NCBI GenBank assembly: GCA_023313575.1
Contig: JAJTTP010000004.1
Location: forward strand, 2,480,001-2,544,000
Length of the DNA: 64,000 nt
Direction of reading: 5' to 3'
DNA from: Eutypella sp. D-1
Lineage: Eukaryota > Ascomycota > Sordariomycetes > Xylariales > Diatrypaceae
Part shown: positions 1,030 to 31,009 of the stretch, one piece after another
How positions within the stretch are numbered: position 1 is the stretch's first letter
Layout: every line of letters starts with the position of its first letter
Translations under genes and position numbers: made by a program
The notes under the pieces: model-generated
What the model was told of the DNA's origin: nothing
The model's database searches: none
What the model saw: the letters and a program-made list of their open reading frames with translations, nothing else

Positions 1030-1867
1030 TTACTCTTGCCACCTTTTCCCCTCCCCCTGCGCCTTTCTTTCAAGGTCAACATCGTCATAGATTTTGTCCA
1101 GGAACCCGGCCGCCAACTCATTGAGGTTGTTCAGGGTGTTTGCGTAGTTCAGCATGAGGCCCCGGTCCGTAGCCTGATTCCCTCTGATGGTCACTTGATC
1201 GATGTGGGCATAGTTATCCTGCTGATCGAGTCCATGCCCAGCTTGGCTATTGAGTATAGGCGCATTCAGCATAATGCCCCGGCTAGTCGCGATATTGTCG
1301 ACGATGGTGCGAGACGTCATAGGCCTGTTGACACTATCTGCGCTTGGCACCGATCTGGTGACGAGCTCTTGAAGCTTCCGGTTGATTTCAGACGACAAGC
1401 CGATATTCACGATGCCAATGGTGAAGCTGAGATTGTTCTTGCTGGCTGTCAACTGCTCGATGGACCGCTCCAGGGCTAGCTTCTTCTTATTTTCGCTGAC
1501 GAGTGTGCGCGCTATGTCGGCAACCCCTCTGCCCGCGTTGTTGCTTGTAGCCAGTTCCATCTCGATGGCCTTGGCTATCATCATGATCTCCCGAGCCTGT
1601 TTGGTGGCCCCGGGATGATTCTGTAGGGTTGGCTCGGCTTTGAGGGCGTCAAGGATGACAGTGGCTATGTTGACTTCCCTCTGAGATTCTTCAAGGAAGA
1701 CGCGCATCTCCATCGAGTCTTTCAGGACGTCGTAGACCGCACCGATGGCCACGCCAGCGAGACGCAGGACCGCGGCAGTAGCACCGAAGATCTCCAATCC
1801 AGACTATGCTCGTGATTTTAGTTAACCAAATAATCATTCAGGCGGACGGATAGGTATGCCGTACCAT
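1030..1867 (-). CDS. HeLo/SesA-type helical protein with two C-terminal HET-s-related amyloid motifs
   Basis: Two exons are inferred: 1865-1867 (the ATG alone) and 1803-1030, joined across a 61-bp intron (1804-1864, GT..AG, with a TTAAC/CTAA element near its 3' end). The product has 258 residues. It opens S-G-L-E-I-F-G-A followed by a hydrophobic helix to about residue 27, the usual opening of fungal HeLo/SesA-like domains at the N-termini of NLRs and cell-death effectors. Helical, charge-rich sequence continues to about residue 150. Two pseudo-repeats follow: I168-N171-A173-M179 and I207-N210-A212-M218, 39 residues apart, with 8 identities over a 13-residue core. HET-s also has two 21-residue repeats separated by a linker, with an N-x-A/V ladder. 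Inferred role: membrane-targeting cell-death effector switched on by amyloid templating. The upstream in-frame triplet at 1797 is TTG, so the spliced ATG is preferred. Confidence 0.72.
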
Positions 1868-3375
1868 ATTTGCTGTCTTCGAAGAATCAACCCGTTCAAT
1901 TTCTCAACGTTTTAAAGCAACCAGATGCAACTAACGCTTTCGACAGGATAATCTTGATCAGTCAGGGACAACACATGTAATATCACTACTGAGAGTAAAA
2001 ATGCCCAACTCACAACCTCTAAGGTAAAATAAGACATCGGCTATAATGTACGAAAGCGCACAAGTTTCGGGCTTCACAGAGGGAATGATGAGTTTATCAA
2101 TGCACACATCTTCAGCGTCGCTCTGCAACATAGGAGTCCAATCGTGGGGACTCGCACCTGCCGGATGATATCCTGTCATATTCTGCAATTATTTCGGTGA
2201 AGGTTCTACATTGTGGTTGCATACAGTAATGGGAGGGTTCCATGAATGAACCAGGCTACACCTTCCAGTCTTCTGTCTTGATATCAGCCTCACAAGCATC
2301 TTTCCGCCCTCATGTCTCTCGGGCGACAACAACAACTCGACCGCTACTTCCTATAACTACGCCGTCTACGGTCCTGCATGTTGGAGAGGTTCATGCGAGT
2401 GGCATATATTGCAACCATGCTGCATGAGAAAATACGACATAGCACTTTTCGGCACGTTGTTGGAAAGGCAGAAATATCTTCTCGGCATCGGGGCGCACCC
2501 AGTAGGTCGGCTTCTCCGGTGGCTGGAAATCGCTCCCCGGGTTGGTGGAACCATGTAGAAACTAATAAGTCAACCTTGATCTCACCGTTACATCGAGACT
2601 TTTTAGTACATGAACCCGTTCGGTTCGTGCTTTCGGAGCTGGTGCATCGGGTAATGTAACCGACTTCGGTGAGAAGACCTGAAGTCTGGAGGGGTGACTG
2701 ATGTGGCGCTTGGGGGCCAATTTTCGGTGTACATAGATGTATACATGCGGGTATCGAACATGCGTCAGCATACGGTCTCTCTTACCATGGTCTGAATCTC
2801 AATAGCTTCTTTACCGACTGAAGGTAATTACCTTTTCCTGCACGGCAAACTCAATCCAGCACAGGCCCGAACGTCGGCCGTGAAAATGTTGATTTTGTGG
2901 TGAATCGTGTTCAGCCGGCTCGGTTCAACAAGGTGAAGCGGAACCAGAAATATCTTATGGGCCTGGACGGAATGGATTCGAGATTTCTAGGTAGTTTACG
3001 AAGAGATAATCCTGTAAATTATCTTATACCCCTATCGTACTCACAGCGACTCTAATCGGACCCTGCCAAGCAATTTCATGGGCTAATAAGTGGAGAATGG
3101 TCGCCTGCAATAAAAAGGGGTTGGGAGAGGCCTAAATCAAGCTAACGAAATCCGCTAAAACTTCAGAAGCACACGCCCATAGTTATATTGAATTCAACCG
3201 TTCCTAGGTTTAGTTCCGTCGTGTGGTGTCTTGTATTGTCAAAGACCATCAATTTCTGCTTGGCTTCTGATTTGCCCACTCGGATTAGAAGTCGAACTGC
3301 ACCATACTATTGCTAGTTCCTACCGAACAGGAATACATGTGCATCTTCCGTCCATTCCAACACAACGCAGCTAGT
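1868..3375. other. Intergenic with short, possibly decayed coding fragments
   Basis: It contains a 76-codon minus-strand ORF with an ATG (2188 to 1958) and the tentative spliced ORF listed separately at 2391-2771. Neither resembles a family I know. Nothing recognisable lies between 2772 and 3375. Confidence 0.4.
2391..2771 (-). CDS. Tentative small two-exon ORF, unknown function
   Basis: An ATG frame from 2771 can be joined to a second frame by removing 2562-2609. That 48-bp interval starts GTAC, ends TTAG and has a TTGAC branch-like element, and the phases agree, giving 110 residues. The second exon reads like protein (for example P-T-Y-W-V-R-P-D-A-E-K near its middle), whereas the first is less convincing. 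No domain is recognised and no HRAM-type motif is present. It could be a decayed gene fragment in this repeat-prone block. Transcript evidence would settle it. The call rests only on splice-phase agreement and composition. Confidence 0.22.
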
Positions 3376-4341
3376 TTAAGCAACCAGAGGCGTAGTCCCC
3401 CTCATCTTCGGCACATCCGCCCATGGCGACGGCGGCGGTGGCGGCGTGAACCCCCCGCTCGACGCCAGCGTGATGGTGTGGATGTACCGAACTTTGCCGT
3501 TCTCAAGTCGGAACAGGTGGCTGTCGGGCGCCATGCTGAGGTGCTCAAACACACACAGCACACTGATTGTCCCCATCGCCTCGTCGATCACGTATCGCCG
3601 TCCCGAGTTCGGAGCCTGATTGTGGTTTGACGGGATTCCCAGCTTGCATGAGTCGTTCGGGCCCCCGTTGCCCGTGTACACCGAGCCTTCGAGCCGCGCG
3701 CAGGGGGTACCCCATCTGTATAGTAGATAATTTCAGCCATGCACTAGGTTGAGGGTAGCTTGGGTGGACTATACTCACGGTACCGCATCAGCGGCCGTCG
3801 CGTTATCCCACATGCTGAGGTATGCGTCGGCAGCGTTCTTCAAGAGCTCCCTGGTGTCGCGCGCATCTTCGGGGATGGGGTCCCAGGTCTCCCGATTTAT
3901 CCAGTAGAGAGTACCAGTAGCGTTGAAGAGCCAGTGACCTGTGGTCGAGACGATGCTGTCGATGAGGTAGGAGGTCATGTCCTCGGGGTTATGGCGGATT
4001 TGGGTGCCGATAACGTAGGGAGCGTCGCCGGCCGGCGAGTCGTCGCCCGTCACCACGATCTCCGTAAACGTTGCGCAGTCGATAGGGTCCACGAAGGTGC
4101 GGCGGTGGTCGATCACCAGCGCCGTGCTGAGGATGCCGTCCGCGATCTCCGCAGTCTTGTTGTCCTGGATGTATGCGAAGTCGCCCGCGAGGTTCTCCAG
4201 GGCACCTGGGTCCCCGCTCTCCTGTGCCGACACGTATGTGTCCGCAAAAGCGACTAGCGCCTCGCTGGTGCACTCCGCGAATACGGTCGGCAGCAGGAGT
4301 GCGCCAACAGCTCCCAGGAATCTGAAGGTTCCCTGAAACAT
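3376..4341 (-). CDS. Secreted DUF8021-family protein
   Basis: Two exons (4341-3779 and 3715-3376) are separated by a 63-bp intron (3716-3778) with GTGAGT donor and ACAG acceptor. The split proline codon keeps the frame, giving 300 residues. A signal peptide is clear: a hydrophobic core followed by V-F-A before E23. The mature part matches the fungal DUF8021 pattern: an early Cys, an A-D-T-Y-V-S-A-Q stretch, a central C-A-T-F-T-E segment, W-L-F-N-A-T-G, R-D-T-R, then after the intron W-G-T-P-C-A-R-L-E-G, R-R-Y-V-I-D-E, P-D-S-H-L-F-R and N-G-K-V-R-Y-I-H-T. The C-terminus adds a short proline run. The family is secreted, its biochemical function is unknown, and copies often occur in accessory DNA. 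The gene lies between two HRAM effector genes on the same strand; nothing shows a functional tie. Confidence 0.85.
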
Positions 4342-6097
4342 CGTAGATATGGAAGGGTCTACTTCTGTATCTTAATCCAACCAGATCATTCCAGCCTAGC
4401 GTTTTAGCTATAGGCAGTCTAGGGATACGCGGAAATATAACTCAATTGGATTTGGGGCGATTTGGGAGGTTTAAATCGGCTTCGGCGACGAAAGTAGATG
4501 TGCCGCCGCTTAATTTCGTCTAGGCGCATGCTACCGTTCCGCACCGGGAGAATAGGCGGCAAAGTTGGTCATGTCGGTTGAGACGTCAATAGTTCATTCT
4601 TCCGACCTATAACTGGGTTTATTGAACGGCAGTTGTATCCGGAGCGTAAGGTTGTTGGATATTCGGCCTAATGTAGAATGATGTATCGACAGCCATTGGC
4701 AGTCGCTAGCAACAAATTCGAAGCGCGGCGCAACAGTCCAGAGCCATCTTAAGGTTTATAATACTGCTTCTAATCTAATACTGAATCTAGTACAAAAACA
4801 ATACCGACGTGGCATTGTTTGCTATTCAATCCATATTGGCCGTAAACGCATGGCCTAGTCACTGTAGTTATTTTCTCCACTCGTCGAGAAGGTTCTACAT
4901 ACGAAACGATAGAGACATACATAGTCAGTTAAGTTGTTAGACTAGGAGACACAAACATCAGCCATTCAGGTAAAAAGCTATAATGAATTATAATCTTGAA
5001 TCGTCGTTATACGCACACTAGCAGCGTTGCCCAATCTACCACAGAAGTGGGGGGGGGGATCGATATCCCCTATATCAATACAGAATGTGTCGCAACCAAT
5101 GAGAGCAGCCTACTATTGGTTGTGGGGCTCTCTCTCATACAGGGAGCAGGGGGATAATACTCCCCCGCTCCTCCTATATAAGATATTCTAGATAGCCCTT
5201 CTCTTCGTTAGAACTTAGAAAATACATGATCAGTTCCATCTGTATCACGACGCTCCTTATATTCAGTCTACTGAATGCGACAAAATGCCTGTAGTACGAG
5301 TTATATATAGCAAGTCCTGCATAATCCATTCTACCGCTAATTCACTGTAGTTCACGTAAATTTATAACGTAAACTTTCAAAAGTAAATACATGTTGTTTC
5401 CGTAAAACGACATGTCACGTGATCGTAGGCTAGCAGCCGTCCTCCGCCGATCAAAGCACCACGATGGACGAGACCATCCTATCAGTCGGGAAGGGGTTTT
5501 GGGGGGGGGGGGGGGGGGGTTGATTTGAATAACTATTCAATCAACCTCTACCCATCCTATCAAGCTAGCTCATGGCGGTTACCTACTTTTTTTCTCTCAA
5601 TCCGTGCCCAAATCCTTTGAGATAGACATGAAAGTGAAATACTGCCCGTTCAGTATCGGATGATCACGGAGGAGACGTCGGCTTGCCTATCCCTCAATAT
5701 GGACATGACCAATATTAATGAATCACAATTTCGATAAGCTACAGGTAGATCAGCCCCTTGACACGACCCGTTGATTTCAACTACATGAAGTTAGTGACAC
5801 GGAATTGACTGAACGCTAAGCTGGATAACGGGCTTCTGTTGTTCTGCCAGGGGAGGAAAACGACGAATAACCTAACTAACTGATGCTTCCAGTTATCCAC
5901 TCCTTAGACTGCACGGGGCGGGTCAGGTGGCGATCTGCCACCTAACTGCCTCCATACCGTGACAGTTACATGATACCAAGTCATAGCCACATTGAGTTGC
6001 CGTGGGTCTCTCTACATAGAACAAGTTGTGCAAATGCAATACAGTGCTATATCATTCCATGTAGACTGACCGTCACGAACAGTGCCCATCCCATGGC
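4342..6097. other. AT-rich intergenic DNA with two poly-G tracts
   Basis: No credible gene is seen. The DNA is AT-rich and TpA-rich, consistent with decayed sequence. Uninterrupted G runs lie at about 5049-5058 (10 G) and 5501-5519 (19 G). Confidence 0.5.
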
Positions 6098-6713
6098 CTA
6101 ATCCCGCCTGAAATACTTTATCCAGTTGGAAGATTTCCCGCCCATATTTCCTTCACCTAGGTGGTTTGATTGTTCACCGTTATCTGCCTCATTCTGTGAA
6201 ATGGATGCTGTCGAGCCTGGGTTCATACCACTGGGATTCAACCAGTTGCGCTGTATAGCTCCACCGCTAGATTTATTCCCACCTATGGTGGTTCGAATGC
6301 CGGTCAGCAAAGTAACTAAATCACCATCTGTTCATTCAATCTAGAGCGGGATGGTAAAAATACTGATAGAATAGTTACTGGGAATGGAATGATGCTCTGT
6401 GTGCCAGTACACTGTGCCGCCTCGGGATGCGTGACCAAACACCTGGTCAGCATCTTTGAGTTCCGTTCGGTTCATATTTTCCAGGCGAATCACCGTAGAA
6501 GAGCTCAGATTTTTCGCATCACGTATCTTCTGTTTGATTGACGCAATGGTGTCATTGTCCGTATACTGTATGGTGATGGCCTCGTGGGGATTCGAGACTA
6601 GTTCAGACCTATCAGAATGGTACTTGTAGAACCATACGTCTCACTAACGCCATAATCGGAATACATCTGGATTCAATCTTACCATTCTTGATTTCGAGCT
6701 TGCTTCCCGACAT
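6098..6713 (-). CDS. Ubiquitin-like domain protein with two C-terminal HRAM motifs (copy 1)
   Basis: Three exons are inferred: 6713-6683, 6597-6379 and 6315-6098. The introns are 85 bp (6598-6682, GTAAGA donor) and 63 bp (6316-6378), and all phases agree. The product has 155 residues. Residues 5-78 alternate as a beta-grasp fold would: strand K-L-E-I-K, strand A-I-T-I-Q-Y, a helix about 27-40 (I-A-S-I-K-Q-K-I-R-D-A-K), strand T-V-I-R-L, then a D-A-D-Q-V loop and strand T-V-Y-W-H. This is the ubiquitin order. The C-terminal part has I94-N97-S99-Q105 and I122-N125-A127-Q132, spaced 28 residues apart, and ends in an aromatic tail (W148, Y151, F152). It is a diverged paralogue of the gene at 8664-9271 with the same exon plan. 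Inferred role: receptor-triggered amyloid effector with a ubiquitin-like head. Confidence 0.65.
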
Positions 6714-8663
6714 TGTATCGCAATCGGTTACTAGTTCTTGTTGACAAGATAAAATATCACATTATTTTTTCTATGAAGAGGTGATATACGGCTTCATTAA
6801 ATACAGTGATAGGCTGGGGTTAGATGGGGAAGGGGGGTCGCGTAATGATATCATTACAAGTATCATTCAATCATATATACCAATTAAAGAATCACAGCTA
6901 GGTGCTTTTTCCGGTCAGTAGAGTGGCTATACCCTGATCAGCTGTCCTCCAATTTGTAGGGTAGCATCAGGTCTTCAGCCTTCACCCATCCTTCTTTCTA
7001 CGCTTTCAAACGATCACCCCGTTATATCACCACATTTCTACCAGTCATCGGACAATTCCTTCGTTTCTCTGCCTCCTGCAGTGGGGTTGCTTATTTTTCT
7101 TCTCCTTTCACCTAGTCTAGTCAGCCATCAATTATCATCGCCCTTCACTGCACCCCAACTAGTATTAAGGCGATTTCAGTACAGATTGCCTTGTTGGGCC
7201 TCATTACATAGTTCTTAAGACGCCGAGCCCCTCATCATTGGCAATAAGGCCAGCTGTGGGTCATTTAGTTGCATTGTGGCTTTAGGACTTCCTTACCGGT
7301 CACACTGGCCTCGATTAAGAATGGGCTAGAACGCGATAAAGCACAGTGGTTACCGTACCCGTTATGATATAGAATTGCCCTTCGATTGGATTCAGTGATC
7401 AATTTAATTGCCGGTTTTCTCCTTCCATGTATCTTACGGGCTGAGGTAAGTGTCCTGCAGGGCTGCATGTGGATTGTGGATCATATAAGCCTCTTTCTTA
7501 CGGCTCTCGGGCGAAGTCCGTCGCCCGATATGCAAAGCTACGGCAGCAAGTCTATCACGCAAGAAGAATGATTGGGTCATGTTCAATTCTCGTAGCTTTC
7601 TTGAATAGTTTTCTCATACTCACCGAAGAGAAGAGAATGGAGGTTAGTTGGGGAATGAGAAAATTAAACGATCATAAGCAGTGTAACGTCGTAATCTATG
7701 CCGATTGTCACTCTAAACAAGTCCTACTGCTACTTCACGATGAGATTGACGATTCGGTATACTTCACCTCCTTCCTAACCGGGCACGAAGATTTGCCCAT
7801 CCGACACGAATTGTGTGATAGCAGCCTTCTCGTCGGCTTTTCCGAAGCTACCAAATGCAATCAGTAAACATCCGACTCCACTGTCCTATCACGGTAACCC
7901 ACGTCTATCCCTATGCAGGCTCAAGCCTCGCCCTAGGCAGGCTCAAGCCTCGTTATCCGAAAAGCTAGCCCTTGGGGTGATTTGCGGTGAGCAAAAGTAT
8001 CATCCCTTAATTTGTTACTCTGTGCAGTAAGCTGACTTTCATTCTTGGTCCATATGGCAGGTCTTCCCGATGCAGCACTCTCTCAGGAGACATGGCAGTG
8101 CCTTTCTGATCACCCCCAAACGTATTTGAAAGGTTCATTATGTAGGCATCCAAACACAGCGTGATTTACAGTATTTTGTGGTCGTCATTACTGGGGTTAG
8201 ATCAGAATTGGTTCCACTATGAAATCTGCAGGTTTCGATCCTGCTATGAGCCTACCCGTGCGAGGCTTTGGTCTAAACGTTACCCTGCAACCCTCTCGCG
8301 CCTTCAAATACGTCAACAGCAACAACGATGGCAATATACCGTTGTTAATAATCCGGGTACTAATCCCTTCTTGGCCACGGACGATTTATTGTTACTGTAG
8401 GTCAACAGTGTATATGCCACTACACACACCATATTATTGGAGCTTTCAGTTAGAGTGTAAATTATGATGTAGCATCCATCTTATGCCTTAATTATCAAAT
8501 AAAACAAGGGATGCGAATCAAGGTATTCAGTGCCCCATCAATTGAAGAAACCACCCTTCTCAAAGCATTTCCTTCTCAGGTAACTACCCGTGGAGCAGAT
8601 GTACTGAAAGCGACGTGACCGTCAATCCAACACACAAGACCAAGATGGTAGATATATTGGGCC
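6714..8663. other. Intergenic between the two ubiquitin-like/HRAM genes
   Basis: No gene is recognised. A 132-codon plus-strand frame (7469-7867) and an 82-codon frame (8219-8467) are present without any known motif. A 15-bp unit (CAGGCTCAAGCCTCG) occurs twice, about 23 bp apart, at roughly 7915-7955. Confidence 0.45.
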
Positions 8664-9271
8664 TCACATTTTGAAACCCTCTGGTATGTGCTCCGAAACC
8701 ACACTGGTCTGGCACGACTTGCCCGTTGCCACATTGTTGGTTATTTCCACTGTACGAGTGCAGCCAGACGCGAATCCAAAGATAGCAAGTCGCTGTTTTG
8801 CAACATCTGAAGCCTTATTGTTGTCGATCACGTCTTGCTTACGCGTTAGCACCCTCTTCATGAGGAAGAACTAATGGCTCCGGGGTAGACATACTTTTGG
8901 ACGGCCCTACACCCTGCTTCTGATGAGGCACATTGGTTGCCCAGTGCACTACTTGGCCCGCATCAACCATATCACTTAAACTCGCGACATGTGATATGTG
9001 TTGCATATTCTGATTGAATAGGTATATGGTGGTCTGTCCATCCAACCCATATTTCCCGCGGATCCACTCTATCAAACTCGCTGGGTTATCATCGTAGGAT
9101 ACGTCTGTCTGCGCAACGTCGGCGCCATCTTTTGGGCCTACGTATCAACCCGTCAGTACAATGCTTTAGACATGATAAGAGCGGATCCCGTTTGCATATG
9201 TGGGTCATATATTCTAGGCGAAGCTAGTAATACTTACTATCCCGTATCACGATTTGAGAAGGGGTAGTCAT
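8664..9271 (-). CDS. Ubiquitin-like domain protein with two C-terminal HRAM motifs (copy 2)
   Basis: Three exons (9271-9238, 9137-8895, 8833-8664) are separated by introns of 100 bp (9138-9237, GTAAGT donor) and 61 bp (8834-8894, GTATGT donor, GCTAACG branch, CAAG acceptor). Phases agree throughout, giving 148 residues. The N-terminal 80 residues read as beta-grasp: strand Q-I-V-I-R, strand Q-T-D-V-S-Y, helix 31-41, strand T-T-I-Y-L-F, a S-L-S-D-M-V loop and strand Q-V-V-H-W. After a short linker come two motif copies in exact 28-residue register: I95/I123, N98/N126, A100/A128 and Q106/Q134. The intron positions match the paralogue at 6098-6713: one after the first strand, one just before the motif region. 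The motif-bearing exon can therefore be viewed as a module. Function is inferred by analogy with HET-s-type effectors. Confidence 0.7.
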
Positions 9272-10688
9272 AGTGAAGTATCCTGTTGAGGCTTAGTACA
9301 CTATGTATTGAGAACTGTCGAAGGCAAGTAAGGAAGATCCGACTAAGTGAGGGAGCCTGTAATAATATTATATACCTGGCTCAATACGCTGGAAATTTCA
9401 GCTACTCGGTGAGCAGCTTACCACACCAGCCATATAACTGCTTCTCTAGAGAATTAAGTTGCTTTAATAGTGAGTTATGTCCTGGCTGCCAATCATCCCC
9501 CCTGTGCCATTCCTTTCCTACCCCCAAAAATATTGTGGTTATTTTCATATATAATATGGTGTCATACTGGCACCCTCACCAATAGCTACGCCTATGCCTT
9601 GTACTGAATTATACATAGAGGATGGGTAGCTATTGCAACCACATCGCCGAGACGTAATTATTCGCTTCGGTCATTTGTTGGTCACAATCACTGAGACCCC
9701 AGGGACAAGGTATGAGCGTATAGAAGCAGGCTGAGATAAGCCACAATAGCATTACTAGCTAACATGGAAAATGGCACAGTTGAACTCGGGTACTGAAACC
9801 CTTCGCAGGTTGATGCCCCTCCCAGATGGGTAGTGATCAACCCATTCTCTCTCCCTACACCGAAGCTCTCTCATCTAAGGCTGAATACCACACCCATGGT
9901 GCAGGTGATGTTGGTTGAGGATGCAGGTAAATAGTGGTATGTGCATACTGAGAAGCCTGGACGTCCCGGACCATATATTATGAAAATTTGCGCGGTTCAG
10001 TACTTCCGCGTAAGAAATTCCCATCCATGATATTTTGACCTCCGTGTAGGATGAATACATATTATAGTTAGCTGCAAGTGTTCAGCTCATATAGATAGCT
10101 TCTGTGAGATGTATATCCTGCGGTCGAGCGATATTATGTTCCAAATTGTACGTTAGTGATAAACTAGGAGTATCGAAGTCGTCACTACTGGTCGTGACTT
10201 CATATTACAAAATTTTTAGAGGGTTTAATTACTTAGATTGATCGTTGGGTATCTAAAGAGAGAGACTATCTTAGACGGGTCCCAGCCCATATCATTCATG
10301 TACCTAAAAGGGTCACCACCAAAAGTGAGGATTGCCGAGGATTCGTAGAGATCTTGGCGATCCAAATCACTTGATGCGCTGCGGGGGTTGCTTTGGTGGC
10401 TGGAAATGAGTGGCTTGCAACCCTAGACCGCTAAATCCTACTCTCGGGTAAAAATATCAAGAGCTACCTATGGAAAAATGAGCCGAACTGCTTTGCCTTG
10501 CGTAAAAGCTTCCTTCCTCAGCTTCTTTATGTCTTGTTCCCAATGCTGCATTCTTGTACAAGACCCAAATCGTGGGTCCTATGTTCTATTGAAGAAAATG
10601 GAGTGTAGAGAGAAGGTTTAATATGGCTGGTGAATGAGCAAATACAGATAGCCCTGCCCAATGCAATAGTCGAATCAGCTGGACATCC
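9272..10688. other. Intergenic, no gene recognised
   Basis: Upstream region of the second ubiquitin-like gene and 3' flank of the next effector. Short frames occur on both strands, none with a recognisable domain. Confidence 0.45.
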
Positions 10689-11511
10689 TCAAACATTCCA
10701 TAGCTTTTTTAATGCCTTAAGCGGGGGGGTGCCACTCGATATAATGCTACTCTGGCTGCTGCTGTTAAGCGCCATGTTCTCCGAGATACGTGCTGTAGTT
10801 GGTGACTTGGTCTGGTTATAGCCAAATATCGCGTTGACCTGTCTTGACGCATTCTCTGCAACATTTCCTTCAATCACCAGGTCCCTCTCTAAAGCTTCTT
10901 TTAGAGACTCCCATTTCGTTAATTGTTCCTGGGTGTCGTGCTGCGACCTATTCCCTTCGCTTTGTGGCTCAATGATCAAATTTTCGTCTTGACGCTCTGC
11001 TCTTTCTAGTCTCATGCCGCGCTCAAGCTCCGCAATGATGGATACGGTAGCTACATGAAGTCGTAATGATAATTCTTGGTTAGCTATCACCATCCGTGTT
11101 AAGATTCCACGTAATCTCTCATCGTCCCTTCCTCGACAATGTAAAGCATGTAGTCCTTGACGTAGTGGGCTTCGCCTTTGCCATTCAATCATGCCTTCTA
11201 ACACGTCTTCGAGGTCTATCATGATAGATCGAATGACACTGAGGTGAGGCTTGATTCCATCGATACGAAGTCTCGGCTGGTTTTCAATCTGTTTCACAGT
11301 ATTTTGCAAACTGAACAATTGTGCCTTCACCTCCCTGATCACCTTGGGGGCATCCCGCACACTTTGTCGGGATAGATCGATCTCCTGCCAGAGAGCTATA
11401 GCGGACCCGATCAGCTGGCTGATGGTTGCAATGGCGCTAAAGGGATCCTACCCGTGCAAACAGGTTACTTAACACAGTTCGATAGACCGGGGGGTATCTG
11501 GTACTCACCAT
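10689..11511 (-). CDS. Fungal NLR-N-terminal-type helical protein with two C-terminal HRAM motifs
   Basis: Two exons: 11511-11509 (the ATG alone) and 11447-10689, across a 61-bp intron (11448-11508, GTGAGT donor, GGTAG acceptor). The product has 253 residues. After the intron the protein reads D-P-F-S-A-I-A-T-I-S-Q-L-I-G, the opening typical of fungal NLR N-terminal (HeLo/SesA-like) helical domains. Amphipathic helices continue to about residue 150. The C-terminus carries two motif copies in exact 29-residue register: I193/I222, N196/N225, A198/A227, N200/N229, S202/S231 and Q204/Q233. A short basic, Trp-containing tail ends the protein. The ATG-only first exon is shared with the gene at 1030-1867, which argues for common descent even though the rest has diverged. 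Inferred role: cell-death effector activated by an NLR carrying the same motif. Confidence 0.72.
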
Positions 11512-14500
11512 TTAAACCTGACAGTGTGGTATTTTTAGCAGAAAGATTGATTGGTATATCGGTAGTTTTGATAAGGCTGCCGAATCGGGAACAGCCGGGC
11601 GTCCTGGTCGGACCTACTATCGCAACCACCAAATATTTAATCAAAAGGGGGGAAGGTGCTAGCAATATGTTCCGTCGTCAATTGAACGGAATTCAACTCA
11701 ACTATACTGTAGGGGGTTTATAGTATATGGTAACTAGGAGGCCAGAATCAAAGTTACCAGATAATAAAGTGAGCAGCGCAGTACCCGTGATTGCTTAAGT
11801 ACCAAAGCAGTTTGCGACATACATCTACTTTCGTATACGGCATAGCCGCTTTTTGTAGTGCCTCATATTCAATGGTGGTTGCCCTACCAACGGTAAAAGC
11901 CTCGCCACGCCATAAAAGAATGCAACGGTTTCACATTAGATACACGTATTCTTTAATATAAGTCTTACTATTATAACGCGACACACATGAAGCAACGGAG
12001 TCTCAATAGAGTTCTAAAGGACCCCAATACAAAATGATAATATATTCCCCCCAACAGAAGTTGGGGCCCATTAAGTTCACATTATTCGAATTGAGCCCAC
12101 AATATTTTTGGATGCATAATGCTAAAATACCCGTCGGTAATGCCCGAAGGCAGTGACAACGTGCATGGGGTCCATTAATTCTTGTAGAATCTTCCCTACA
12201 ACGATTGCGTTCATCGCCTCAAGCAGGTTCTAATATTTCATGCAAGAAAATTTGTAAGTCTGGTGCCACGTTTAACTATAGCTATGGCTGGCTGGCAGGA
12301 GCTGGAGAAAGTCGGCCTACCTACATTTTCGCGCTGAGCTACGATACGTCGCATTATTAACAAGGTACATCATTTAATTTTCGAGTAAGCCCTAGGGAAT
12401 GTCGGGGCAAAACGAAACATGCGCCCTTCTATTTAGATGCCGGCATCTAATTCCGCCTAAATTATAATATAGTGGTTGCATATATTCTCACAGGACCAAC
12501 GATCCACCGCGAAAAAAAAAACAAAAAGAACAAAAAAAAAACAATAATATCTACTCCGATTTACCCTCGAACGGTGAACACGAATGAGTCTGAATTTTTC
12601 TGTCTGCGACTTAGCACCGTGGCGAGATTCATTCAATGAGAGGCAGGGATTGTCTCTATTTTGGATGGGGTGGCAAGGTGGTTCGGTGGGTATGATTGCA
12701 GCTGTGGTGACAATGAAGATTCCCGATATGTATCAATATGCATTGTGGCAAGAAGTACCCAGCAGGCCATTGGGGGAGGGTAGGAATTGGGGAGCTGCAG
12801 GTGGGCAAGTTGTTGTCGGGGGGTGGTTGTATACTCCCGACAATGGTCTGAGACATGCTAGATTAATTGCCGGACAATATAATTATTCCCGAGGTCCTCT
12901 CTACTATCTGCAATCCAATGTATTGCAGTCAACCTCTTGCCCCATCTTCATCGGCTTTTTTAGCGCGATATTACCATGTTAAACACTGCTTGGACTAGAT
13001 AGAATGCACATCCATCCTGCGTCTTGAAATAATTGGCCAAATGCAAGCTACTGATTTATTATCGCAATATAATTATTATCGAAACCCCCTCCCACCTAAT
13101 AACGACATCCTCACCTGCAATAAAGCAGGGGGCCGAGTGCATGCTGATGCTGCGCAGGGGGGCGATGTAATGAGATATACTTTTGGGGCGCAGTGAATAA
13201 TAAACCTATACCGCCTGTGAGATCCAGCGTCGTAAAGGCAGTAGCGCCGTTCCTTACCCATGTAAACGTCTTTTTTTTTTTTTTTTTTAAAAAAGAAGAA
13301 AATCACATTATTCCCCGGAAGCATACCATGTTCTGGCCATTGAATCTGAGTAGGCCTATTTTCGTATGGAATATCCTGATGGTTTCTTGACCGACCCTCG
13401 AATGATATGTACCCAAGCGTCTTTGCTAAGGCTGACTCATTGAGATTGATTATTCCATTTAATTGAAGAGCTTCGCCTTCTGTCCAATTCCTTCACATTA
13501 TGGTAATTTGGGCTCCTGACTGTTCTTTGAGCTTCACATTCATTCCGCCATTCTTCAGCCCCTTCGCACCTGCATCCCACTCCGTGTTTTAGCTCTGATC
13601 TCTTTATTTGCACTCTACCGTTCTAGTATTCATATTGCGGCATCCTGAGCATTGATGATATGGACTATATTAAGTCCGGTACGTTTCTTTTTTTCTTACT
13701 TAATGTACATAAGTACGGATATGAATACAGTGCACTTTGTCTTTCTTCCTACCGATGATAGATGGCAGCATAGATTCTATAAGGCAGATTGATATCTACG
13801 CTTATAATCAATATAGCATTAATTGGCTTTTTCTTTTAACAAAAACTATATTATTCTACCGTAATGCGTCTATTATCCCTATCTTCCTGGAATCTTATAG
13901 ATCTCCTACAATTCCTAGACCCACAACGTGATGCACATATCATTTGTGGCCTATGGCTTGCCTATTTCAACCCCCCCGCGATTCCAGAAATGCATCACAT
14001 CTCGGATAATCTCGAGCTAAGGATCAATTACGAGGGCTCAATGGTGGTTTGCGTCCGCGCTTTCATTCATGTCCTGCTGATTAGATAGCCGTGGCTGTGC
14101 ATTGTCTTGGGAATCTCAGATTGCCAACTGCCTGGGTGCGGGCAGTAGCCAGCACAGTTCACTGTGATAGTTCGATCGGTCTCCATGGTGAAATAGACTG
14201 GGCAAAAAGCTGAGAGTTATTATTGAGCCGACGACCTCACAAACAGCACATCGAGCTTCAAATACTAAGAGAGTAGGATTTGGAGATGAGGGGCTGAGCG
14301 ACTCCACCACACCCTGCTCCACTGCCAGACTGCTAACCAGGAAGGCGAGCCTACCTAAGTGTTTATCTAACCTTCGACTGCTGTAGACCACTGGTCAACC
14401 GATGCGTTCGTAATGTTCACAATAGTGACAGGGGCGATCCTAACCACTGCAAAGGCGGTCATAGCCAGTGCCATTCTAGACCGTACCAAACCTAAAAGGC

Positions 14501-16256
14501 GCAACATTCCTTTGTGCACTAATATCTATAGACCTTAGCGTCGTTGACTGGCATCGTTAAAAGAAAGTGTGGCGCTCATTAGCATGTATTAGTGGCTATG
14601 CAATGATAGGGAGGATCGATCAATTAAACGATCGAGATAGGGGCTCACGATACGTAGTTACTTTCGAAAAATCTTTAAGGGGAAGCATTACGAGACTGGC
14701 ACCTAAAAACAATTGCCAGCTATTTACTGTGAGACTTTCAGTACAAAGTTGTGTACTATTCAGATTGAACGATTGTCTTCGGGAGTACTTAATCATATCA
14801 TTCAATATTGTCTAGCCCTACGTAGTACCTTTCTGCAATGCCCCGGGAGGCTCCATAAAGCCATTCCCTACGAATTAAAGCAAGGGGTGCGAAGCAAACA
14901 GTCGCTATAACTCAGCAAAGGATAACTGATTGCTAGTTACCTGGTATTGGCTGTATGGCCTTGATGGCCCCGGTGCCTCTGTATCTCCGGTCCCGAGAAA
15001 CCTTTGGTTGGACCAATGTAACGTGAGCGGAAACCTCCTGGAAAGTCAACTTCAGCGGTTTTAGCTACGTAGAGATTGATACAGTTCAGTTCTACTCCGG
15101 CGCTGCCTTTCCAACGGTTAGAACCTAGCCACTGTCTTAGGTGTACTTACCCCCTATACTGAGAACTGGAATAGAGTTTTTCTCGGCAGACTACGTTTCC
15201 CGGACTTCAGGGGTCACCCGCTCCGCAGGTTAGCTATGCTTAGTCCCTCTATCTCAGCTACCACGGTACTAATGTATATCAGATATGCCTTCACCCTTTC
15301 ATAAATACTCCGGGACGGCATTGAACCTTTCATTCTTCTATATGCATCATGCATACTCTCCGTACAACGTTTCAGTGAGCATCACGAATCAAGTCAGCCT
15401 GACGTCCTCGCCTAATACACCGGTCTTCCATGAACTACGACTATCGACAGTCCCGAATAGTGGATGCAGAAAAGCTACCACTTGGCGATGCTCCTAGTCG
15501 GCAGTGTTGGTCACAAAGATACATACAACCCAACGATTGAGCACCAATATTGATATCACACCACACAAGAGTCTAATGGAATGATCTATACAAGCAGTGA
15601 GACTGCTCTGGCATCACGAGTAGCCAACAAGGAAGGTATATCCAGTTCAGCGTGTGATTTTCTGCTGGGTCTGCATTACGCACAACCATCCAAGACAAGG
15701 ATGGCAGTGACAGTTCATCATGCAGGAGTATTAGCAAGCAACGGATGCTCATAGCCTTAAGCTACATGATCTCGGGATATGTCTCATTGGATACTTCCAT
15801 ACTCTGGTTGCTAGCTTGCAGGACGCCTTCGGACGCACGGATCGATATTTCGGTGAGTAGAGGATCACTACCCTGATTCTGCACTTGTGGGTGGCAGCCG
15901 TATGCATGACATGTTCGCATGAGCATGATCTGCTCCAAATGACATGGAATCTATTATTCGGCCCATGCAAGTGATGTAGAAGTGAGGCGGTCAGGATTAT
16001 TGCAAAGATTGAGAGTGATTTACAAGATGTACAAAGCATAGTTTGATGTTAATGGGGCATCCATGGGAAGGTAGACACTGTGTGAATCTGGCATGTGCTC
16101 CAGTGCTTTTATAAATAGAAGGCTCTACACTCTGATCATTCATCGAATCCACAACTTGAGCTTCCCTAAGCAATTTCACCGGTGCTTCGCTGTTTCTTAC
16201 TTCTTCGCTTTAAATTGCCGAGCTCAGACAAGTTCCACACTACTTATATAACTACA
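11512..16256. other. Gene-poor stretch with unassigned frames
   Basis: About 4.7 kb without a recognisable intact gene. It holds a 132-codon plus-strand frame at 12584-12982, A-rich and T-rich homopolymer tracts near 12511-12542 and 13271-13290, and the tentative spliced fragment at 14937-15192 listed separately. Scattered short protein-like frames between 13.7 and 16.0 kb may be decayed genes. Confidence 0.45.
14937..15192 (-). pseudogene. Tentative spliced coding fragment, unknown family
   Basis: On the minus strand an open frame ending at 15151 is followed by a GTAAGT donor, a TTCTAAC branch-like site and an AAAG acceptor (intron 15107-15150, 44 bp). The frame then continues in phase to a TAA at 14937-14939. 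The downstream exon codes about 56 residues with protein-like composition (G-G-S-A-G-V-E-L-N at its start, a Gly/His/Arg-rich end). No start codon can be fixed and no family is recognised, so this may be the 3' half of a broken gene. The splice signals are its main support. Confidence 0.22.
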
Positions 16257-18719
16257 ATGGGACAGGTCTATTCCAGATTTCATGCCATACTGGATTCTGC
16301 AAAAAAGGACAGCCATCCCCGCAGCCTCGACCGATCAGATGCGATGCAGCATCCAGATGCATCTCCGAAGTCCCCTTTACATACAAGTAACGGTTCAAAC
16401 AGACCGTGTGAACAGCAGTCCGACTTGGGGCTTACCGCTTCAGCGACAAAGAGATCGAGATTAGATGAACAGCCTCTCTCTGTGAATCACCGTCGTGGAT
16501 CGAGCACACCCTCAGAAACAGATCAAAGTCCAGTAAATCCCAATAATTACTGGAACTGTAAGCATCAGGTGAGCTTCATAATAATCTATGGTTAACCCAA
16601 AATAATTTGAACTCACTGTTTGCTTCAAGTCCCGGAAGTCTGAGCATGACCAAGACTCGCCAATCTCAACGAACTTCCCAGGCAACCAAGTCCGAGATCT
16701 TGAAACCGGAAATGTTGTCTTCGAGAAACGGATTGGTGAACAGAAACCGGCATTCAAGCTTCATTGTCCGCTTCTCATTGCTTTCCTGCGATATGCCGTA
16801 ACCTATGTCCTTCCGGGATCCCACAGCAAATGGAATCACTCCATGGTGACCCTAGTTGATGATGAGCAGTTCGACATCGTGTTTCATTACCTCCCCGAAA
16901 TCGAGGAGCTGAGGTCCAAAGAAACAGACAAAGATACCGTACGACATGTCAACCTTCTCCTGGAATCTGTGAAAGAAGCGGATCCAGCAACTTGGCAGAA
17001 AGCCAAAGAAATACAATCGGGAGAATGCAAAAGCATCTCTTTCAAAGACCTCTGGCTTCTGTACCGACCTGGATCCACCATTCTGAGGAAGGATAACGGC
17101 TCCTGGAGAGCCTACAAAGTTGACAGACTGGAGTCTGGCACTCATCTGAGTAAGGAGACCTGGAATGTCCACTGCATTTACCTTGACTTTGATAAAACAG
17201 GGAAATGGCTAGTACCTCACTGGGAAGTACTTGCTGTACCTTCGTACACTTCAGAGAGACCTGTTTCAACCTTGGAAATGATTCCAGAGCCGTACCTAAA
17301 CAATGCAAGTCAAATTCTCACGCAGTTGGTTGGTCACTCCAGTCAATACTGGAAGTATAGTGGGAGTGTACACTATCAAGAGTATGATGGCGATGAGTGG
17401 CCGAAGATGCCACACGAAGTAAGTAGCACTCGAGATGCGTCCTTCAGCTAGTGGCATACTTATACTCGCTAGGGCCCTGTGAAAGTCATTGTTGACTACG
17501 TGACGAGTAGCCAACATAAGGCAGACAAGGACTCTTCGCTACTCCCATATGACAGTGGCACGTGTTCTGTGTGTCTTGGGGAAGATGTCGGACTCGGCTC
17601 ATACCCTAAAGGGGCACCACATGATCCAGATATATGCCCACGGTATAAAGAGACAGACATACCCCAAGGCAACGGCGGTGATATGAAGATCTCGTCACCA
17701 TTCTGCCCACCCAGAGTTTGGGCATTCTCACTCAAATATAAAACCTGGAGGTTAGTCTTTCCGCGTGATCTAGCGGATGTCCGACCGAACAAGGAACCCT
17801 TTAAGCAGCTGTATGTCGAAAGACAGGAGAACCTCGAGCTTCTTGAATTCACCATTGCTGCCTACATGAACGAATATCAGGCAAATTGTAGCCTTGATAC
17901 GATGACAGGTAAAGGACATAGTCTCAATGTCCTTATCCATGGCAACACAGGCACAGGCAAAACTCTCACAGTCGGTAAGTATCATCTATTATATATCATA
18001 TCAATACTACTTTTACCGACGACTAGAGTCACTGATAATGTAAATAATTAGAGTGTCTTTCAGAAAAGCTTGGACTGGCACTCTACGTGGCAGATTGCGC
18101 CCATTTGGGTACCGAACCAGATATTTTTGAAGAGCGACTTCACGAAACCTTTATCCGAGGGGTCAACTGGGGGTCGATCATCCTTTTGGATGACGTTGAC
18201 GCTCTTATTTCCCAACGTTCTCGATGGGACATGAAGCGCAGTGCCCTGGTCTCTGTCCTCCTCCGACACCTTGAGTATTCAGAGGGGATTCACGTCATAG
18301 CCACTAGTTCTTCCGACCAGCTTGACACGGCCCTATTGTCAAGAGTTCATCTACCCTTAGGGCTTCATGATTTTGAGTTCCGCACCCAAAAGCGAATCTG
18401 GCTCAAATTCATTGGAGGTATCGAAGGTCCACGCGAGGAAGCCTATAAAAAGGACCTTGCATCGTTCATCGAGAACAGCCTAGAACTTCTCGATTCCGGG
18501 GCCTATAAGGAAATGAATGGCCGACAGATCAGGAACTGTGTTGATGCTTCATTGGCCCTGGCGCGCAGTAAAGAGTCACTTCTGCAGCCGATGCATATCG
18601 TTCAAATGCTTCGTCTAGGCAATGAATTTAGAGCGTTCCTAGAACAGCATCACAACGTGAGGGGGCAGTCTAACGGACGTGCCTTGAATCTACCCGTGGA
18701 GCTACAAAGACACCAGTAG
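16257..18719 (+). CDS. Fungal AAA+ ATPase with DUF7025-like N-terminal region, divergent active site
   Basis: Four exons: 16257-16568, 16630-17418, 17473-17974 and 18064-18719, giving 752 residues. Introns are 61, 54 and 89 bp with consensus GTGAGC or GTAAGT donors, and phases agree. Residues ~1-110 are hydrophilic and disordered. Residues ~140-470 resemble the DUF7025-type region that precedes AAA modules in fungal ATPases (F-K-D-L-W-L-L-Y-R-P-G, then F-S-L-K-Y-K-T-W). Walker A is intact, G524-N-T-G-T-G-K-T531. Walker B is L-L-D577-D578-V-D, with Asp where most AAA enzymes have the catalytic Glu. The sensor-1 stretch A-T-S-S-S (614-618) lacks the usual Asn. The S-R-V-H arginine-finger region is kept (R628), and a helical lid follows. 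ATP binding looks preserved, while hydrolysis may be slow or lost. It converges on the NLR-like gene at 19796-20784. Substrate is unknown. Confidence 0.85.
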
Positions 18720-18902
18720 GGGACAGTACCTGGCCGATGATGACGATGCTACGAATTTCATTTTCTACCATATATAACATTATCATTTAAGTGAAAAAGA
18801 TTAGCCTGCTTCTTGAGGCACACACGGTCTCCTTGTTTATTAGTCTCTCCATTTCTCATCAATTATTACATATTTTCAAGCATGGAAGCAGCTTGTTATA
18901 CC

Positions 18903-19517
18903 CAGGGGCGCAACTAACTGCACGGCACGGCACTGACGGTCCTGGTGCGTTGCAGTGCATCACATGCACGGCCACCTTCATTTTGGTGCAGTGCAGTGCG
19001 TTATATCTGCACTATCGCACTGCACTGGTGCGATAGTGCAAGTTGTGGGGTCGCCTGGGCAGAATGAAGCCTAAGATTGGTATCGTGATACAGATTTTTG
19101 GTGTTTTGCTGGTTTATACCACTGTAGCCACTATAGCCACCATTATAGCCCCTAACCAGGCATCACTGTAGCCATTAACCGGCCACTATAGCCACTAGCC
19201 GGCCATTATTATGGCCATTAACCAGCCACCACTATAGCCACTAACCAGCCACTGTAGCCACTAACCAGCCACCACTGTAGCCACTAACTAGCCACCTGTT
19301 AGTGATACCATATAAATATATAGGGAGCACTAACAGTGGGTCTAATGGCCTATTTTCGTGCGTTATATCTGCACGGCACGGGTTGCACTGGGGACCCCCA
19401 GTGCGTGCCGTGCGGTAGTGCGTTAAAAAAAAAAAGGCCCAGTGCGTGCCGTGCAGTTAAATGGTGCGCACTAACGGTGCGCACCACGGTGCGATAGTGC
19501 AGTTAGTTGCACCCCTG
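18903..19517. mobile_element. Non-autonomous hAT-type DNA transposon (615 bp)
   Basis: The element starts CAGGGGCGCAACTAAC and ends in the inverted complement (one mismatch over about 21 bp). It is flanked on both sides by the identical 8-bp GTTATACC (18895-18902 and 19518-19525). An 8-bp duplication with CAGGG-type ends is diagnostic of hAT elements. No transposase frame is present, so movement would need a transposase in trans. The subterminal regions are rich in GTGCAGTGC/GCACGGCAC units. The middle (about 19120-19300) is a minisatellite built on GCCACTAACCAGCCAC-like units. The clean duplication and GC-rich ends suggest a fairly recent insertion. Confidence 0.88.
19120..19300. repeat. Minisatellite inside the hAT element
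   Basis: Imperfect tandem units of the type GCCACTAACCAGCCAC and CACTATAGCCAC recur throughout this interval. Unit lengths vary and there are no unique spacers, so it is not a CRISPR array. Confidence 0.75.
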
Positions 19518-19525
19518 GTTATACC

Positions 19526-19795
19526 AGTTTCATTGTATGGATTAACAATCTGCAGGTTCTTCAACGCCATGCAACGATACTCTTCGAGCGCTTCTTTAGT
19601 TGTTCTCAACATGAAAGGGAGGTAACAGGCCTGCTTCCAAGTTCTACGCTTCAAGAAGACTATCGCTGTCATAACTGTGGTTGTACAAGGCCATAGTTCT
19701 AAATATAGCAACACATCAAGCATCTCATTATGACGAGGAGACGAGGCAGCCAATACCCAAATCGCTCTATATCCCAGACTTTAGTAATGCAACAA
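19526..19795 (-). pseudogene. Possible decayed 3' extension of the receptor gene
   Basis: Beyond the stop of the receptor a shifted minus-strand frame (start about 19753, running into the hAT end near 19517) has protein-like composition but no recognised repeat unit. It could be the ruined C-terminal part of a longer NLR interrupted by the hAT insertion, or simply 3' UTR. Confidence 0.25.
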
Positions 19796-20784
19796 CTAAA
19801 AACGTATTCCTGCTCGTCCGTCAGGAGGACTGTCCAGCTCAATGTCGATCAACCCCTTCCAAGTTTGCTTCAATTCTCTTGTCGCACCACGTGACCTGCT
19901 TGTTATCAATATTTTCGTAATAACCTTCGTTCTTTGAGATAAATGCTGCAGGTTATTTATGAAGCTGCGTTCGTCGGGATCAATTGCATCGATGTTGTCA
20001 AGCATGATCACTACATGCGGGGAACCTGAAGCCATAATGCCTCGTTCAAAGAGTTCCCAATGCTTCCCACCATTTCTGGATTGATCCCACTGTTTACACC
20101 CCTCGTGGCCGATGAAAACATGTGGGTAGTACTCGCGGAGTTGGGCAAGAAGGTTGTGTACCATAGTCTCCACCTGTCTGCCTTTTACCACATGGTAGCC
20201 GCAGAAATGTACCAGAAGAACCGGATCATACCCCAAAGATCCAATCAGCTCTAATGTCATATCTGTGGTCCAGTTGAAGCCGATGTCGTTGGATTCGTAC
20301 CGCCCAATGGACACGACTGCCGATTCCTTCGATCCAATCCATTTGCGAATATTTTCCCATTGATCTCTGCGGAGAACGTCAATGACAGAGCGGTATCCGT
20401 TTAGATAGTTGCGTAGGGAATCTTCCAGATCTTTTATAACGCAGGACGGCTCCAAGAAGCAATCGCTATCAAGGACACAGTCTTCTTGGCGTATCATGCG
20501 GCGGGACGGCTCGGTACTATCTCCACATGCTTCTTGTATACCAAGACACCCCTCTATGCTTTCGAAGTAACGTGATGCTGCATACTTTGTCAGAAGTTCA
20601 CTTCAATCATTAGTTTCCAATGAATAATATGAATACCTTCGTCTTTCAGTCCTTTATTCTCCGACGTTCTGAAACAGCCTGCAACGAAAATTTTCACTGA
20701 GACTTTGTTGTTGATATTGTATTGTGTAGATAAGCTAGAGACACTGTTGCCACTGATAGAGTTTGAAGTCGTTCTAGAACCCAT
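19796..20784 (-). CDS. STAND/NACHT-like receptor with one N-terminal HRAM motif (short form)
   Basis: Two exons: 20784-20637 and 20577-19796, joined across a 59-bp intron (20578-20636, GTATTC donor, ACTAAT/CTGAC branch candidates, GCAG acceptor), giving 309 residues. The start is a true ATG at 20784. Residues 10-21 hold a single motif copy, I10-N13-V15-Q21, in the same register as the double copies of the four small effectors nearby. The rest resembles fungal STAND cores: W-x-N-I-R-K-W-I, a V-L-L-V-H-F-C-G-Y strand, a W-E-L-F helix, a Walker-B-like V-V-I-M-L-D-N-I-D and K-I-L-I-T-S-R-S-R-G. I see no GxxGxGK P-loop and no C-terminal WD, ankyrin or TPR repeats before the stop. It may be a naturally short receptor or a truncated one. 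Inferred role: trigger that templates amyloid folding of the effectors. Confidence 0.72.
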
Positions 20785-30200: not shown

Positions 30201-31009
30201 CGATAATCTTGAACGCCTTCAAAATCATCTCATCGATGACGTCGTTAATTTCGTCCATTGTGTGCGGAGGGAGCGCTCTGAGTATCTCCTGCAAGCGCTT
30301 CGCCGTCTTCACCAATGACGAAAGCTCGGACAATAGAGATTTTCGGCTGCGCCTGAGGCCATCATTCCGCTGTATTGTCGCGGATTCTCTCGTTAAGCAG
30401 TTGGTTTTCTCCTACAGGCTAGTTAGCAATTCATAGGCCTCAGCCAGCGGACACTTCGGGAGGGCTTCATACTAAAAGATATCGAACACCTGCAATAATT
30501 CCCTTCATGAACTCCTGGTTGCCAAATATGTCTTGGTCGTTGGTTGCCGTACTCCTCAGCAAGTCCCAGAAGTTCAGGAGCGCGTTAAGCAGATTTCTCA
30601 TTTCTTCCGGATCGTAGGCGTCACAATAATTCGTTGGCAGCCATCCTCTCGCTCCAGAAAGGAGTAGTGTACCGTCTGCCCACCCATTCGTGTGGATCGA
30701 GTGAACAAGGACCACGTCACCCTCATTTAGCGGCAGGGTCACGGTCGCGTCGCTCATGGCGTATGTCGGGTGAAATGGATAAAATGCTCGGAGGAAGTTG
30801 TGAAATATGGGCTGCGGTGGTGTCGGTTGAGAGATGAGCATCTCCTGAGAACTGCTGGGTGTTATCGGCGGTGTTATGTCGGATCGGGCGTAAGGATGTG
30901 TTGAGGCAGCCGCCTCCTCTTCGTGAGATTCATGGCTCCGGTCCTTATGTATTGATAGGGGTGCCACCTGCAAGCTTGACCGGCGGGTCGGTTGCTCGTC
31001 CAGCATCAT
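27298..31009 (-). CDS. Cdc25-type Ras guanine-nucleotide exchange factor (SH3 + RasGEF_N + RasGEF)
   Basis: Two exons (31009-30473 and 30411-27298) are separated by a 61-bp intron (30412-30472, GTATGA donor, TTGCTAAC branch, TGTAG acceptor), giving 1216 residues. An SH3 domain lies at about 72-130 (A-F-Y-P-F at its start, W-A-D-G-T and G-W-L-P-T-N-Y-C at its end). A helical region at ~190-260 and ~380-530 is followed by a long Ser/Pro/Thr-rich linker. RasGEF_N is at ~735-855, with the characteristic T-F-Y-L-T-F-R-L-F. The catalytic RasGEF domain is at ~920-1160 (F-D-P-V-E-I-A-R-Q-L-T at its start; P-C-L-P-F-L-G-M-F-L-T-D-L is the Ras-binding core). The C-terminus is an Asn-rich tail. It promotes GDP/GTP exchange on Ras, upstream of cAMP and MAPK signalling. 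SH3 plus this order matches yeast Cdc25. The two ATGs at 31009 and 31006 are equivalent. Confidence 0.92.

Follow-up and report, generated by a model that had tools for sequence, protein, structure and literature searches.

A motif shared by an NLR-like gene and small neighbouring genes in Eutypella sp. D-1: a possible amyloid-type signalling cluster

Introduction

Do five neighbouring genes of the fungus Eutypella sp. D-1, one encoding a protein that resembles a NOD-like receptor (NLR) and four encoding small proteins, form a signalling unit of the amyloid type? The question is raised by a 64,000-nucleotide stretch of contig JAJTTP010000004.1 (G000:C34:2480001-2544000), called the window below, in a genome of 48.5 Mb and 72 contigs. 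An earlier note, made from the letters of this DNA alone, had pointed to a short repeated motif in these genes, present once in the receptor-like protein and twice in each of the others, and had read the locus as a HET-s-like amyloid signalosome with one receptor and four death effectors. Our analysis supports the motif and its arrangement and leads to a modified reading, to which we give a probability of about one half: an amyloid-type NLR/effector signalling cluster with a motif family distinct from the HET-s-related amyloid motif (HRAM) of HET-s itself (HRAM1), two classes of effector and a degenerate receptor.

Nine motif copies in five genes

The motif pattern, I..N.[ASV].....[QM], was taken from the earlier note, where it had been chosen on these same data. 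We located it with a regular expression in five minus-strand gene models, A to E (Table 1), which were spliced with GT-AG introns of 51-100 nt, the splice sites being placed by consensus. All nine copies reported in the note were recovered at the residues given there, including the one near the start of E, so that a single copy lies at the N-terminus of the NLR-like protein and two lie at the C-termini of the small neighbours. The paired copies are 39 residues apart in A, 28 in B, 28 in C and 29 in D, again as reported. Eight of the nine copies fit the pattern exactly; the ninth, B2, had been correctly described as having its Q one residue early. In both copies of A, M stands in place of Q. 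The segments are rich in N, Q, S and G, and charged residues are absent from the copy in E (0/19) and number 2-6 in the effector copies.

Between window positions 1 and 21000 the regular expression gave 10 stop-free matches, which were eight of the claimed copies and two unrelated plus-strand matches. This compares with a mean of 0.62 and a maximum of 4 in 100 dinucleotide shuffles of the same DNA. Same-frame pairs 20-50 residues apart were found three times in the real sequence and never in the 100 shuffles. There were no matches in window positions 21001-64000 and three in 60 kb of flanking DNA (six 10-kb stretches). Chance or composition as the origin of the motif was ruled out by these shuffles together with the leave-one-out scans described below.

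The exon layout of the models is regular. Both introns of B and C lie at matching places and are phase 1, and in both genes the motif pair stands alone on the last exon. In E the motif exon is the first exon, with 49 codons and a phase-1 end. A and D have in common a 61-nt, phase-0 intron directly after the ATG. These matching introns and phases suggest that genes were duplicated inside the cluster and that the motif moved as an exon.

Table 1. Gene models and motif copies in the window (positions count from the first letter of the window)
Feature	Position	Strand	Description
Gene A	1030..1867	-	258 aa; exons 1867-1865, 1803-1030; two motif copies
Motif A2 (IRGNQATDRGLM)	1153..1188	-	I at residue 207 of A; link to other genes weak
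Motif A1 (IVDNIATSRGIM)	1270..1305	-	I at residue 168 of A; link to other genes weak
Gene B	6098..6713	-	159 aa; exons 6713-6683, 6597-6379, 6327-6098; predicted ubiquitin-like domain at the N-terminus
Motif B2 (ISQNEADNGEQ)	6170..6202	-	I at residue 126 of B; Q at +10
Motif B1 (IGGNKSSGGAIQ)	6251..6286	-	I at residue 98 of B
Gene C	8664..9271	-	148 aa; exons 9271-9238, 9137-8895, 8833-8664; N-terminal homologue of the predicted ubiquitin-like domain of B
Motif C2 (ITNNVATGKSCQ)	8709..8744	-	I at residue 123 of C
Motif C1 (IDNNKASDVAKQ)	8793..8828	-	I at residue 95 of C
Gene D	10689..11511	-	253 aa; exons 11511-11509, 11447-10689; four-helix bundle (predicted); C-terminus of low confidence; two motif copies
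Motif D2 (ISENMALNSSSQ)	10752..10787	-	I at residue 222 of D; kept in 2/2 relatives
Motif D1 (IEGNVAENASRQ)	10839..10874	-	I at residue 193 of D; kept in 2/2 relatives
Gene E	19796..20784	-	309 aa, receptor-like; exons 20784-20637 (motif), 20577-19796 (degenerate NPHP3_N/NACHT-type domain)
Motif E0 (ISGNSVSSLSTQ)	20722..20757	-	residues 10-21 of E

Sharing of the motif between the genes

Because the pattern had been chosen on these data, we also ran leave-one-gene-out scans. A position-specific scoring matrix (PSSM) was passed over 279,651 positions of the window, the flanks and NLR loci of the genome, with two relatives of D (see below) in the training set except when D was left out. Among non-training matches, D1 ranked 1 and D2 ranked 5, the C1 site (scored with its pre-splice residues) 1 and C2 4, E0 2, B1 4 and B2 402, with A2 and A1 at 64 and 108. 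A profile hidden Markov model (HMM) on the same sequences placed E0 at rank 5, B1 at 1, B2 at 7, C1 at 1, C2 at 5, D1 at 3, D2 at 289 and the best A copy at 50. When the relatives were omitted and only the window and flanks were scanned, the HMM placed E0 at rank 3 with 4.3 bits and the A copies outside the best 16 rows. The scans support C, D, E and B1, and B2 in part; the A copies fit the regular expression without grouping with the rest.

Whole tails were compared by Smith-Waterman alignment, with 1000 shuffles for each comparison. The C-termini of C and D align over 51 residues that span the two repeats together with the linker between them (score 75; shuffle mean 21.9, standard deviation 3.9; 0/1000 as good), and their N-terminal domains do not match (136/1000 as good). 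C and D carry a common repeat-linker-repeat module on unrelated domains. With the residues of the pattern set aside, C1 is still like D1 (p 0.004) and C2 like D2 (p 0.026), and the crosswise comparisons gave p 0.37 and 0.19. BLASTP returned no alignment of the C and D tails, and only noise for whole A against D. The N-terminal domains of B and C match (0/1000 shuffles as good) and their tails do so weakly (25/1000). The tail of B matched that of D less closely (66/1000) than that of P0007, one of the D relatives (3/1000). No match was seen between the N-termini of A and D (313/1000).

For E, the first 49 residues matched the tail of C with a score of 42 (3/1000 shuffles as good). As a comparison, the best of 1378 control peptides, which were ATG-started 49-mers from 60 NLR loci of the genome, scored 38. 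The alignment runs through the motif and over a five-residue gap into GC.RT.E. Against P0007 the same 49 residues gave 24/1000 with shuffles and 5/1378 with the controls. Together, these data indicate that C and D share the motif well, and so does E by way of its match to C; for B the sharing is moderate and for A weak. The link between one receptor-like protein and several effectors that had been proposed for this locus is supported to the extent that C and D share a module and E matches C, but A is only weakly tied to it.

Conservation in relatives

Protein searches found one relative of A (P0006, 93% identical), two of D (P0007 and P0008, 55-59% identical) and, with B and C as queries, one of B (P0001), all from short public contigs. 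Loss of the motif in orthologues, a possibility raised in the earlier note, was looked for, and in both D relatives (2/2) both copies keep I..N.A.....Q. There is a six-residue alignment gap at the first copy, where the I is supplied by neighbouring residues. The repeats of D are identical at 28/35 and 27/35 sites (three gapped sites excluded in each), compared with 80/144 and 75/135 over D residues 44-187 (nine gapped sites excluded in P0008), 3/7 in the linker of both, and 8/16 and 7/16 in the tail. Both relatives are without the first 29-39 residues of D. P0006 keeps both A copies and is too close to A to be informative. Single-sequence searches of the genome gave no paralogues of C, D or E at E-values up to 0.1, or of A at E-values up to 1.

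Predicted domains of the effector candidates

AlphaFold predicts a four-helix bundle over residues 1-145 of D, with block values of the predicted local distance difference test (pLDDT) of 52-83; the last 44 residues have a pLDDT under 50. The structure matches were generic bundles. The best rows of these fold searches included neither HeLo nor MLKL chains, which excludes nothing. Against the SesA family (PF17107) D scored 14.8 bits, with a cut-off of 26.3, and it had no match to PF14479 or PF17111. No Pfam family was matched by A, including PF14479, PF17111 and PF17107. The N-terminal stretch of A is hydrophobic, and in both A and D the most hydrophobic 19-residue stretch is the N-terminus.

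For B a ubiquitin-like (beta-grasp) fold is predicted, and through homology to this domain C would be ubiquitin-like as well. The Pfam evidence lies below the cut-offs: B scored 15.3 bits against ubiquitin (PF00240; cut-off 25.4), its best row was SL4P (E 0.00074), the only row of C was Kre9_KNH (E 0.034), and PF20147 was not among the matches of either. When a three-sequence ubiquitin-like profile was searched against the PDB, two designed TIM barrels (E 0.0015 and 0.0017) outranked the ubiquitin chains, and no single stretch was significant. To speak of four death effectors, as had been done, is too strong with two proteins that are ubiquitin-like by prediction or homology (B and C), one predicted bundle (D) and one protein without a Pfam family (A). 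B and C look like a duplicate pair, and A and D are perhaps another.

PB1 domains are able to form head-to-tail polymers. In VIA-align comparisons of the ubiquitin-like model of B (middle exon, window 6380-6595) the top rows were PB1 domains, tied with ubiquitin. Whether the predicted domain of B might behave like a PB1 domain is worth a look.

A possible signalling cluster

The reading that we favour would work as follows. E would present its single N-terminal copy as a template, on which two-repeat tails would polymerise: those of C and D, probably that of B and possibly that of A. Two outputs could result. The helical-bundle proteins (D and probably A) could act on membranes in the way of HeLo or HeLo-like proteins, and the ubiquitin-like B and C could be arrayed as a multivalent ubiquitin-like scaffold that recruits further machinery. 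We infer here an amyloid fold of the motif, templating, the choice of interacting partners, cell death and a working receptor in E. The reading is favoured by the number and position of the copies (one in the receptor-like protein, two in each effector candidate), by the tail module common to C and D with its likeness in repeat order, by the match of E to C, by repeats that are more identical than the body of D in its relatives, by the uncharged copy in E and by the placing of the motif on its own phase-1 exon in B, C and E. It is also favoured by the position of E, which among the NPHP3_N, NACHT and NB-ARC matches listed is the only one within 170 kb on the contig. If confirmed, the reading would add a motif and a type of output protein, both new, to the known fungal cell-death circuits.

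Several observations weigh against this reading. Amyloid formation by the tails is argued by analogy, and the first copy of D falls inside a low-confidence predicted helix (residues 164-208), not in a free tail. The predicted bundle of D is a common arrangement, and profiles of A and D had no sequence match to solved HeLo or MLKL chains in the PDB. The C-terminus of A matches none of B, C, D and E (100-607/1000 shuffles as good). E does not match D significantly (373/1000 shuffles; 104/1378 controls), nor B (191/1000; 48/1378). Retrieval by an HMM, offered in the earlier note as a check, put most left-out copies high, but unrelated frames score alike (in the PSSM scan the best of them reached 15.2), and the scans therefore rank the copies without proving each single one. 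P0001, the sole relative of B, stops before the motif and is hence silent on its conservation, and the search with E gave zero relatives among 515 candidates, full-length NLRs being outside the length limits of that search.

The gravest of these points concern E itself. Calling E a receptor is backed by its degenerate NACHT-type domain, but a Walker A motif is absent both from the model and from every minus-strand frame of window 19001-22600, and Pfam shows no sensor repeats in the 309-residue model, which covers window 20784 to 19796. With neither Walker A nor sensor repeats in the model, ligand-driven oligomerisation of the NWD2 type appears doubtful for E. A protein without P-loop or sensor could be a relic; it could also serve as a decoy or as a constitutive seed. 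This is the main doubt about the cluster as we read it.

Gene E as a possible relic

E may instead be what is left of a former receptor, an NLR that was truncated, lost P-loop and repeats and no longer works; the effectors would then remain on their own or respond to an unlinked receptor. Although we consider this improbable, it is the likeliest of the alternatives. The Pfam NPHP3_N match of E begins at profile position 54 of 164, all but one of the genome's 30 best NPHP3_N loci show a Walker A motif, the model of E ends directly behind its NACHT-type core, and a repeat element lies about 278 bp past the stop codon. In published cases, as far as the sources describe them, NLRs may act on effectors from unlinked genes. 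Against a relic, the reading frame of E is open, its intron is plausible and its motif exon is retained. Nor did another receptor stand out when 60 NPHP3_N and NACHT loci (L016-L075, overlapping sets), each with about 1.5 kb on either side, were scanned for the motif: no frame stood out from background (best 8.1 bits in one scan, and up to 15.2 in the PSSM scan). The genome has at least 89 NPHP3_N, at least 41 NACHT and at least 12 NB-ARC matches, in overlapping sets. A PDB sequence search with E, like those with A and D, gave nothing meaningful.

Several NPHP3_N matches of the genome are without the N-terminal third in one frame, some of them through introns.

Comparison with HET-s-related amyloid motifs

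The HRAM, as defined in the literature (PMC4518210), is a 21-residue motif with glycine 19 conserved in all published members and hydrophobic residues at positions 5, 8, 10, 16 and 18; loops of 6-18 residues separate the copies, one of 155 cases having a 2-residue loop. According to the same source, NLR copies are charge-poor and copies cluster by repeat order. PF11558 is described as matching only about a quarter of published HRAMs.

We compared the motif with PF11558 and with HRAM1 copies of this genome. A positive control lies on the same contig about 330 kb away, where a HET-s homologue with a HeLo domain and two HRAM1 repeats (G000:C34:2151705-2152915; L007, L008) stands next to a divergently transcribed NLR gene with one N-terminal copy. 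This pair scored 77.8 bits (HET-s homologue) and 22.8 bits (NLR gene, below the cut-off) against PF11558, and its copies r0, r1 and r2 all have glycine 19. At the locus studied here there was no PF11558 match. Whichever of 36 ungapped registers was tried, no more than 4/9 copies had glycine 19. The hydrophobic pattern reached at best 26/45 sites even with A, T and C allowed, and in the three registers that did so glycine 19 was present in 0, 2 and 1 of the nine copies. Alignment of the motif with the HRAM1 copies by hhalign gave a probability of 0.1. A PDB search with a profile of the nine motifs returned deoxycytidine kinase chains only (E 1.5 or worse), which we take as chance. The tests of HRAM membership by PF11558, the position template and hhalign against HRAM1 copies came out negative, and the label HET-s-like is not supported. 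The repeat offsets of 28-39 fall inside the 27-39 implied by published motif and loop lengths. The locus looks HRAM-like in its layout (copy rule, spacing, charge-poor receptor copy and clustering by repeat order) and is no member by the PF11558, template and HRAM1 tests.

These results bear on a second alternative, in which the motif is a strongly diverged HRAM subfamily that folds as the two-rung beta-solenoid of HET-s, and the locus a multi-effector HRAM signalosome. The N of the motif can be set at HRAM position 3 in 9/9 copies with A, S or V two residues on, N-x-A occurs in 3/3 HET-s repeats of this genome, and the offsets and the charge-poor NLR copy would fit. There is also the precedent of HELLF, which is reported, in the source as far as it goes, to have the same fold as HET-s at 17% identity. 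Set against the glycine, hydrophobic, PF11558 and hhalign results, this leaves a diverged HRAM unlikely.

Least probable is a non-amyloid short linear or helical segment that binds a common partner in genes made by local duplication and exon shuffling: the low-confidence helix predicted over the first copy of D and the duplicate-like look of B and C, perhaps of A and D (intron positions, and the domain match of B and C), speak for it, but the unmatched N-termini weaken A and D as duplicates, and the two-copy/one-copy layout, the NLR-like neighbour and the N/Q/S/G-rich segments fit amyloid signalling better.

Relation to known systems

As described in PMC4518210, HET-S/NWD2 of Podospora anserina (HRAM1) and the systems with HRAM2-5 are like the cluster proposed here in having one motif at the N-terminus of the NLR and two at the C-terminus of the effector, a similar range of spacings, a charge-poor NLR copy and nearby genes. 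Unlike these systems, this locus has no conserved glycine 19, departs from the hydrophobic pattern and gives no PF11558 match; it has four effector candidates instead of one, two of them predicted to be ubiquitin-like, and a receptor candidate without Walker A.

Units with one NLR, more than one effector class and a common amyloid motif are described for the PP cluster HELLP/SBP/PNT1 of Chaetomium globosum and the sigma cluster SESA/SESB/HET-eN of Nectria (PMC7885112, PMC5485727). In the accounts available both have two effectors, a HeLo-type protein and a lipase. The PP motif is given with a GxQxG segment, which by eye is absent from the nine copies here, and the sigma motif, with about 40 residues, was set against ours by description only. 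An NLR and three HeLo proteins on one contig are reported for Sphaerobolus stellatus (PMC9815663), which is similar in that a single NLR goes with more than two effector genes but differs in that, by that report, all are HeLo proteins, the nearest is 95 kb from the NLR and the motifs are HRAM-like. The same source describes fungal NLRs with a ubiquitin-like domain; there the domain is inside the NLR, whereas here it is predicted on small proteins of their own, each ending in a motif pair. Recent literature, in the portions covered, tells of two- or three-gene amyloid units and of four or five fungal motif families. In the literature searched, again in part, we found no ubiquitin-like effector with an amyloid motif, which does not mean that none is in print.

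A bolder version of the favoured reading is tentative, and we regard it as doubtful. It holds that the locus represents a further amyloid motif family in which one P-loop-less NLR-like protein serves four effectors of two unrelated fold classes, with templating that polymerises ubiquitin-like domains beside membrane-active bundles. The signalosome would then be branched, combining killing with a scaffold, and nucleotide-driven activation might not be needed. A unit of five genes with a non-HRAM motif and ubiquitin-like templated partners would widen the lists of units and of motif families. Two questions would then be open to direct test: can a single receptor copy seed a set of dissimilar effectors, and can amyloid templating drive ubiquitin-type scaffolding or pore formation only? 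The C-D tail on unrelated domains and the matching exon phase in B, C and E make a clean candidate for a motif that moves between proteins.

Neighbouring features

Between A and B, open frames on the minus strand (window 3400-4341) have a start that by eye resembles a signal peptide. Between D and E, an AAA+ ATPase gene lies on the plus strand (window 16843-18719); the three frames scanned match DUF7025, AAA and the fungal AAA lid, and the regular-expression scan gave no motif match there. The repeat element behind E (window 18902-19518) looks non-autonomous, with 30-nt terminal inverted repeats and an 8-bp target duplication seen by eye, and has 40 matches in the genome including itself. Farther along, window 27298-30333 on the minus strand encodes a RasGEF-domain protein, an ordinary neighbour.

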